From Armatimonadota bacterium (GTDB taxonomy: Bacteria; Armatimonadota; Fimbriimonadia; Fimbriimonadales; Fimbriimonadaceae), in contig JAIUNY010000005.1 of assembly GCA_020161505.1 (NCBI GenBank), positions 72,003-136,002 on the forward strand: a stretch of DNA of 64,000 nucleotides, given 5' to 3'. The notes under the pieces were generated by a model. The model was given only the letters and a program-made list of their open reading frames with translations, was not told the origin of the DNA and did not search any database. Shown here piece by piece: positions 62,610-63,509 of the stretch. The translations under genes were made by a program, and so were the position numbers. Each line of letters starts with the position of its first letter. Position 1 is the stretch's first letter.

Positions 62610-62652
62610 AAAAACAACCCCCGGAGCCGAGGTGGCCCGGGGTGTTGTTTTT
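62610..62652. terminator. Strong bidirectional terminator
   Basis: AAAAACAAC pairs with GTTGTTTTT (9 bp), followed by CCCCGG/CCGGGG and GCC/GGC around a 5-base loop, 18 bp with two bulges. On the minus strand it ends the structured RNA just upstream of lysA. Confidence 0.9.
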
Positions 62653-62776
62653 CAGGTTTTCACCTGGAAGACCGGAGTTCATGACAAACCCCGTGTCCGT
62701 AGTCACGGGTTGCTAAAACCCACGACCTCCCAGGTGGTTCCGTTTACTGTTACTCATGTGCTAGGCACCACCTCCT
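62653..62776 (-). ncRNA. Candidate structured RNA (three-way junction, possible switch)
   Basis: Minus strand. A closing stem ACCTGGGAG (62727-62735) with CTTCCAGGT (62662-62670) encloses two hairpins with almost no unpaired bases between them. One is a 10-bp stem with loop TTAGC (62702-62726). The other is ACGGA...TCCGGT with an inner GTTT/GAAC stem (62671-62700). Three G-U pairs occur that would be A-C mismatches on the plus strand, so the RNA is minus-strand. Competing helices exist: AGGTGGT (62767-62773) with ACCACCT (62732-62738), and CAGGT-GAAA-ACCTG (62653-62666). A strong Shine-Dalgarno AGGAGG (62771-62776) heads a mini-ORF. A terminator follows. It matches no riboswitch consensus I know. 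Confidence 0.6.
62713..62757 (-). CDS. Possible 14-residue leader peptide
   Basis: ATG to TAG, product MSNSKRNHLGGRGF. AGGAGG lies 13 bases upstream; a small GTGC-CTA-GCAC hairpin in the spacer would bring it closer. The stop codon lies in the apical loop of the first hairpin of the structured RNA, so translation would unfold that structure. Only one Lys codon is present, so classical lysine attenuation is unlikely. Confidence 0.35.
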   Translation of the reverse strand: MSNSKRNHLGGRGF

Positions 62777-62810
62777 GTTTGGTTTGATTTCTCCGCCAAA
62801 GCGAAGATAC

Positions 62811-63509
62811 TTATTCGGACGCACTCGGCGCGCCATCTGTTGCATTGTTTTCGATGCGCGGGTTCAGAAGTGTCTCTGCGGAGGCAGAATCGCGTTGGGC
62901 CGAGCCAGCATCCATGCGAAGACGGTCCATCAGCGTGGTGAGCCCGAGAGCCTTGGTGACAGTCGCAGGTTTTTCCTTTTGACGATAGATGCAGAGCATC
63001 AGGCGCACGCCCTGACGTTCCCAGAACAGGTATTCGCTATGCTCCGTCTTCACGGAGGAACTCGGAACGCCGAAGTTGCCCCGGTACTTCTCAATCATCT
63101 CGTTGACCGGCGCGGCGTCGAGAGCCTCATTCATGTCGAGCGCGAGCACAACATTGCCATCGGAGGTCACGAGGCTGACCGTGCGAGTCGGGGTTTCCCA
63201 TCCTGCCGCTCCAAAACTCTCGTCGAACATCGGGGGGAGTTCGCTGAGCTTCACGCTGCGCGCGGGAGCCCGAAAATCGCCCACCATGGCGGAATCATGC
63301 TTCTGTCCGATGCGGATCACCGATTCTTCGGCAAGAATCGCCAGATCGCAGCTCAAGTGGGCAGAGGTGAGCTTGACGTCGCTCGCCGTGAGGGTGTCAG
63401 TCTCGCCTTGATTCAAGGCCAGGCCAGAGGGATCGCAGCCTGCCAGCGCTCCACCAAGGAGCAAAACCAGGCTACTTAACTTCCAGAATCTTGTACTTTT
63501 GCGTTCCAC
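62811..63509 (-). CDS. Lipoprotein of unknown function
   Basis: 232 residues from GTG, chosen because it gives a basic n-region and lipobox LAGC (Cys25); this start lies 38 bases inside the end of greA in another frame. The mature protein is Ser/Asp-rich, with a central domain (about 55-200: AHLSCDLAILAEESVIRIGQKHD, VSLVTSDGNVVLALDMNEALDAAPVNEMIEKY). I recognise no family. It is likely cotranscribed with greA and anchored in the envelope. The start codon is moderately certain. Confidence 0.62.
   Translation of the reverse strand: MERKSTRFWKLSSLVLLLGGALAGCDPSGLALNQGETDTLTASDVKLTSAHLSCDLAILAEESVIRIGQKHDSAMVGDFRAPARSVKLSELPPMFDESFGAAGWETPTRTVSLVTSDGNVVLALDMNEALDAAPVNEMIEKYRGNFGVPSSSVKTEHSEYLFWERQGVRLMLCIYRQKEKPATVTKALGLTTLMDRLRMDAGSAQRDSASAETLLNPRIENNATDGAPSASE

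Follow-up and report, generated by a model that had tools for sequence, protein, structure and literature searches.

What does the compact RNA encoded on the minus strand between a lipoprotein-like gene and lysA do, and does it control lysA at all? The first-pass annotation of the window (the whole 64,000-nucleotide stretch of Armatimonadota bacterium DNA analysed here) had described a three-way junction whose mutually exclusive helices, followed directly by a terminator and lysA, have the layout of a riboswitch or translation-coupled switch. The element, at 62610–62776 of the minus strand, comprises a tiny open reading frame (sORF), a closing stem (P1), a hairpin (hairpin 1) and a terminator; read 5' to 3' along minus-strand positions 62844–62610, the order is promoter-like sequence, 5' hairpin, Shine-Dalgarno sequence, sORF, structured region and terminator. 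That annotation did not include the sORF (62757–62713), a rod-shaped alternative fold, the ECF-like promoter or the occurrence of one copy per genome across the phylum, all described below. The features are as follows.

62818–62844, minus strand: ECF-sigma-type promoter-like sequence TGCAAC-N17-CGTC, within the 3' end of the upstream ORF (N17 spacing from alignments)
62790–62807, minus strand: 5'-UTR hairpin CUUCGC/GCGGAG (predicted fold)
62766–62776, minus strand: Shine-Dalgarno sequence AGGAGGUGGUG, almost invariant across the RNA family (alignments)
62713–62757, minus strand: sORF MSNSKRNHLGGRGF, 14 codons plus UAG (stop at 62715–62713); start and frame in 78/78 members
62723–62736, minus strand: 5' arm of P1 (closing stem, base of the rod), within the sORF (covariation; swap test z = -11.1)
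62661–62674, minus strand: 3' arm of P1 (covariation, swap test and fold energies)
62701–62727, minus strand: hairpin 1, the early, stop-codon hairpin, pairing 62717–62727 with 62701–62711 around the loop UUAGC; excludes the rod (swap test z = -7.2)
62712–62719, minus strand: 5' strand of the rod core, GUUU[UA]GC, invariant or nearly so across families; pairs with 62677–62685
62677–62685, minus strand: 3' strand of the rod core, GU[CAU]GAAC (alignments across families and consensus fold)
62686–62711, minus strand: apical helix of the rod, AACCCGUG...CACGGGGUU, pairing 62704–62711 with 62686–62695 (swap tests)
62669–62698, minus strand: hairpin 2 of the three-way-junction state, pairing 62686–62698 with 62669–62680 around the loop GUCAU (predicted folds)
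62732–62773, minus strand: helix masking the Shine-Dalgarno sequence, pairing 62767–62773 with 62732–62738, lineage-specific at best (fold of the window copy only)
62610–62649, minus strand: intrinsic terminator, a GC-rich hairpin followed by U5, the same in both fold states

The surroundings of the RNA bear directly on the proposed link to lysA. Throughout the Fimbriimonadaceae the gene order is greA, lipoprotein, RNA and then a variable downstream gene, which is lysA in the window and, in relatives, kdsB or a convergent lysS, dtd, phosphoesterase, O-antigen ligase or other gene; in other families the RNA sits at other sites, for example before greA-lysS or near mraZ-rsmH. (The lipoprotein-like ORF that separates greA from the RNA, at 62811–63479 of the window, is kept in most Fimbriimonadaceae and has no Pfam match.) In the window copy the terminator pairs are identical in both fold states and have no bases in common with the switch helices. 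Because the downstream genes vary, are often convergent, and the terminator is independent of the switch, control of lysA by attenuation or as a riboswitch is largely refuted and now appears most improbable, although in the window lysA does come next after the element, beyond the terminator. Nor does the sORF suggest a lysine response, as its single Lys codon is not conserved, and an Rfam scan around the element returned no known riboswitch, the lysine riboswitch included.

The promoter and terminator regions instead suggest an independent transcript. Sequences of the form RAAC-N16/18-CGT[CTA], as expected for ECF-type promoters, were found upstream in 28 of the 49 members from the window's order (3.6 expected from shuffles), and sigma70-like promoters, 12–19 nt before the Shine-Dalgarno sequence, in 13 of the 29 members from other orders (0.2 expected). 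The promoter type thus follows lineage, RAAC-N17-CGTC in the window's order (62818–62844 in the window) and TTGAC-TATAAT elsewhere (upstream regions of L105–L168), and this difference suggests, as far as motifs can tell, that one RNA gene has changed its control. Terminator-like hairpins follow the RNA in 37/49 and 11/29 members of the two groups, against ~8% of shuffled sequences. A possible counterpart of the 5'-UTR hairpin, as a hairpin or inverted repeat, was seen in several Fimbriimonadaceae, and family f36 (L109, L110 and L168) carries an additional hairpin, CUAUCC/GGGUAGG, between rod and terminator. Taken together with the reading frame described below, the element is very probably a free-standing gene for a translated, structured RNA.

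We next consider how widely this gene occurs. Diverged relatives were recovered by DNA search within the window's family, and the relatives named here belong to the Fimbriimonadaceae and other Armatimonadota. Of 291 Armatimonadota genomes searched with two covariance models, 121 gave a match (E<=0.05), always exactly one, a count in which a few matches near 25 bits are as doubtful as the noise-level scores from other phyla. The RNA is present in at least a dozen families of the phylum and as a single match in 50 of the 85 genomes of the window's own family; more than half of the 291 genomes gave no covariance-model match, so that the RNA is either not universal or missed by the model in some of them. 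Bacteroidota, Pseudomonadota, Nitrospirota and Firmicutes yielded pattern matches that do not rise above noise (<=26 bits) and are about as numerous as estimated by chance, none of 199 Firmicutes genomes matches at E<=0.001, and none of 23 pattern matches in viral contigs exceeds 22 bits. Elsewhere in RNA-carrying genomes the core motif recurs only as scattered pattern matches at about the control level. One such match lies in the window's own genome (G000:C19:132560-132608, minus strand; GTTTTAGC...GTCATGAA); its apical region has no obvious complementarity and it is probably a chance occurrence.

Comparison with Rfam 15 yielded no family at gathering score anywhere in the window (lysine riboswitch, T-box and 6S included); near the element the only hit was His_leader, whose 22 bits fall short of its cut-off of 49, and 15 distant loci of the family gave no match of note. 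The open literature that we searched describes no such RNA in Armatimonadota, an absence that is not in itself proof. Judged by its sequence, the element is a new RNA family absent from Rfam 15. A diverged housekeeping RNA, such as 6S, tmRNA or SRP, would also be a single-copy RNA of ~200 nt with its own predicted promoter, and 6S went undetected in the window's genome. Yet that genome has a separate tmRNA, near and distant members alike lack Rfam matches, and 6S, tmRNA and SRP RNAs do not combine a Shine-Dalgarno sequence with a conserved sORF; moreover, genomes with the RNA also have 6S, at a different locus (for example G093, G223, G226, G242, G245 and G148), on which ground we rejected the element as the genome's 6S RNA (RF00013). 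We therefore consider a housekeeping origin highly unlikely. As a separate observation, Rfam did not detect 6S in the sampled Fimbriimonadaceae and in several other families (f8, f12 and f17), while it is clear in f10, f36 and others.

All 78 non-redundant members possess a Shine-Dalgarno sequence, a start codon (77 ATG and one TTG, 13–20 nt from the start of the Shine-Dalgarno sequence) and an in-frame stop after 10–15 codons, an arrangement that arises in 17% of shuffled sequences. Within the Fimbriimonadales, where the sORF varies between 12 and 15 codons, the core (landmark UUUUA) lies a multiple of three nucleotides from the start codon in all 49 members, at several different distances, while the core-to-core and Shine-Dalgarno-to-ATG spacings are out of phase. 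In other orders the sORF stays at 10–13 codons and the stop-to-core distance varies without keeping phase (-3 to -9 nt). No conserved run of codons was found in the sORFs.

These regularities could also be explained if the product itself mattered, that is, if the locus were a micro-gene whose peptide (MSNSKRNHLGGRGF in the window, MDxSQRGDxxG in other families) is functional and whose rod only stabilises a short mRNA or limits its translation. The start, strong Shine-Dalgarno sequence and frame retained in every member would fit, as would an S-[QL]-R-G motif that recurs in other orders with switched codons (Ser AGT/TCT; Arg CGA/AGA; Leu CTA/TTA/CTT/CTC) and the replacement of ATG by TTG in one member. 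Against it, pN/pS is ~0.7–1.0 and little different from shifted frames, which lends no support to strong selection on the peptide; within the window's order the N-terminal half of the peptide shows no conservation; and the most invariant part, the core loop, lies outside the ORF. A functional micro-gene is accordingly a doubtful explanation. The ORF is kept although its amino acids are only weakly constrained, and it seems from these alignments that being translated has been preserved to a greater extent than the peptide sequence.

How, then, does the frame relate to the structure? The claim that the closing stem, hairpin 1 and hairpin 2 form on the minus strand holds, with conservation of the closing stem and hairpin 1 far beyond chance, and the G-U pairs that had been used to assign the strand are borne out by a more stable minus-strand fold in 76/78 members. 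The fold energy is lower than that of shuffled sequences (z = -2.7 over 127 nt; z = -4.4 over 181 nt; 0/200 shuffles as good for each length). The proposed geometry needs some adjustment: hairpin 1 keeps its predicted loop and has 11 bp rather than 10 when G-U pairs are counted, and the three-way junction can be folded, with 0, 3 and 0 unpaired bases according to ViennaRNA instead of the 0–1 first proposed. Two of the helices on which the original switch was built fared less well, since the helix masking the Shine-Dalgarno sequence is present in the window and unsupported across the order (z = -1.0; 147/1000), and the GAAA-capped hairpin is not conserved in aligned relatives. Conserved, mutually exclusive helices nevertheless do exist.

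The alternative to hairpin 1 is a rod made up of P1, an internal loop and an apical helix, which unguided RNAalifold predicts. For P1, 0/500 shuffles equalled the observed covariation, swap tests gave z = -11 and -9, and the stem also outperformed swaps with nearest relatives. Covariation of the apical helix extends to the two groups alike (z = -7.2 and -8.6; p = 0.003 and 0.0004 against nearest relatives). Arm-swapped controls of this kind leave part of the phylogenetic signal in place. In the window's order hairpin 1 is likewise supported (z = -7.2, 0/1000; p = 0.017 against nearest relatives), with two pairs showing 8 and 11 double changes; in other orders an equivalent, GGCUA/UAGCC, is visible by eye and not significant (104/1000). 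Covariation in hairpin 2 is weaker than in the rod and includes no double changes. (A start-codon hairpin, GACUA/UAGUC, was set aside, being supported outside the window's order only.) Compensatory changes in the alignments thus support both hairpin 1 and the rod, which are mutually exclusive.

Energetically the two states are close. Over the same 127 nt the enforced three-way junction reaches -45.7 kcal/mol and the rod -46.7, which is isoenergetic within model error; with flanks, the window copy favours the hairpin 1 state (-56.5 against -54.0 for the rod) by at least 2.5 kcal/mol, an exception among members, most of which have the rod as their minimum-free-energy fold. Of 47 RNAs, 39 fold hairpin 1 when truncated and 35 adopt the rod at full length. 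Within the rod lies GUUU[UA]GC / GU[CAU]GAAC, the most invariant segment apart from the Shine-Dalgarno sequence, at whose centre the asymmetric UA/CAU loop is invariant and flanked by U.G and G.U pairs; in several families the core is closed directly by a UUCG tetraloop. Family f8 (L123 2001-2133; L165 and L166) has a second, strand-swapped core loop, GCCAUGAACGGU...ACCGUUUUAGCA, nested within the first, and this near-symmetric double site might, to judge from its sequence, suit a dimeric partner.

An invariant asymmetric loop between wobble pairs, in an RNA with two exclusive folds, is also what a riboswitch-like RNA would offer if a metabolite bound at UA/CAU stabilised the rod and thereby controlled sORF translation or RNA stability. 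We regard such ligand binding as unlikely, given that no target gene or operon is conserved and that masking of the Shine-Dalgarno sequence is not conserved either. What survives of the initial proposal is a selected, structured minus-strand RNA with the layout of a translation-coupled switch: the covariation expected among relatives is there, and no known non-regulatory RNA family was matched.

The layout of the sORF indicates how translation could act on such a switch. P1, hairpin 1 and the rod core all draw their 5' arms from its last codons and stop, and from what is established about ribosome footprints, a ribosome at the stop codon must cover all three arms. With moderate confidence, we propose as the best explanation overall a free-standing RNA gene of ~200 nt with a dual function, in which ribosomes moving along the sORF determine which fold is adopted, with the rod as the functional state. 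The transcript would begin at its own predicted promoter and end at its own terminator. Ribosomes would load at the very strong Shine-Dalgarno sequence and make a peptide of 10–15 residues. Hairpin 1 could form early, once the stop-codon region is transcribed, while the rod would form only when the 3' half has been made and the ribosome has gone; translating or terminating ribosomes would prevent P1 and the rod core from closing, and slow initiation, or a gap between ribosomes, would let hairpin 1 rearrange into the rod. This gating by ribosomes is a plausible if tentative component of the model. The rod would then present its invariant internal loop to a putative partner; since there is no gene in cis to regulate, it would most likely act in trans, via that loop. 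Comparison of relatives carries the sORF frame, both folds, the single copy, the spread through the phylum and, by way of sequence signals, the boundaries of the gene; expression, gating by ribosomes, trans output and partner are proposals. More speculatively, the RNA may be a trans-acting gauge of translation, whose sORF is translated for the act and not for the peptide and whose rod, under ribosome scarcity, offers its invariant loop to a protein partner, a possibility that we put forward with caution.

In attenuators, translation of a leader ORF switches RNA folds in cis. The Armatimonadota RNA resembles the leader attenuators of amino-acid operons in having a leader ORF, exclusive helices and a terminator, and differs from ribosome-dependent attenuators in that no terminator competes with an antiterminator, no cognate operon follows and no stall codons occur; neither a conserved regulated downstream gene, nor a competing terminator (judged on the window copy), nor regulatory codons were found. 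The conserved small ORF with a ribosome-binding site that characterises dual-function sRNAs is, by contrast, present in all 78 members. Like VcdRP (PMC8672173) and SR1/SR1P (PMC8501984), the RNA would be a small free-standing transcript in which a Shine-Dalgarno sequence and a small ORF accompany structured RNA. Unlike in those systems, its 10–15 codons overlap the switch, its peptide drifts, its core loop is invariant across the phylum and its trans function is one that we infer; the small proteins of known dual-function sRNAs are also longer (VcdP has 29 aa; PMC8672173). The open papers that we searched contain no work on regulatory RNA in Armatimonadota, to which the element would add a single-copy RNA with clear hypotheses.

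On analogy, the closest system in its way of working is rnTrpL/peTrpL of Sinorhizobium meliloti, an attenuator-derived sRNA from upstream of trpE(G) whose RNA and peptide both act in trans (PMC7298713). The Armatimonadota RNA is likewise a predicted short, terminator-ended transcript with a sORF (14 codons in the window copy, as in rnTrpL) over exclusive structures (PMC7298713). However, rnTrpL alone uses Trp codons together with an antiterminator and is a by-product of attenuation at trpE(G) (PMC7298713), whereas the Armatimonadota RNA has no conserved downstream gene and no regulatory codon run, and its terminator lies outside the switch. If our reading is true, it would be a detached version of such a device: with no gene to attenuate, the ribosome-flipped RNA switch would itself be the regulator.
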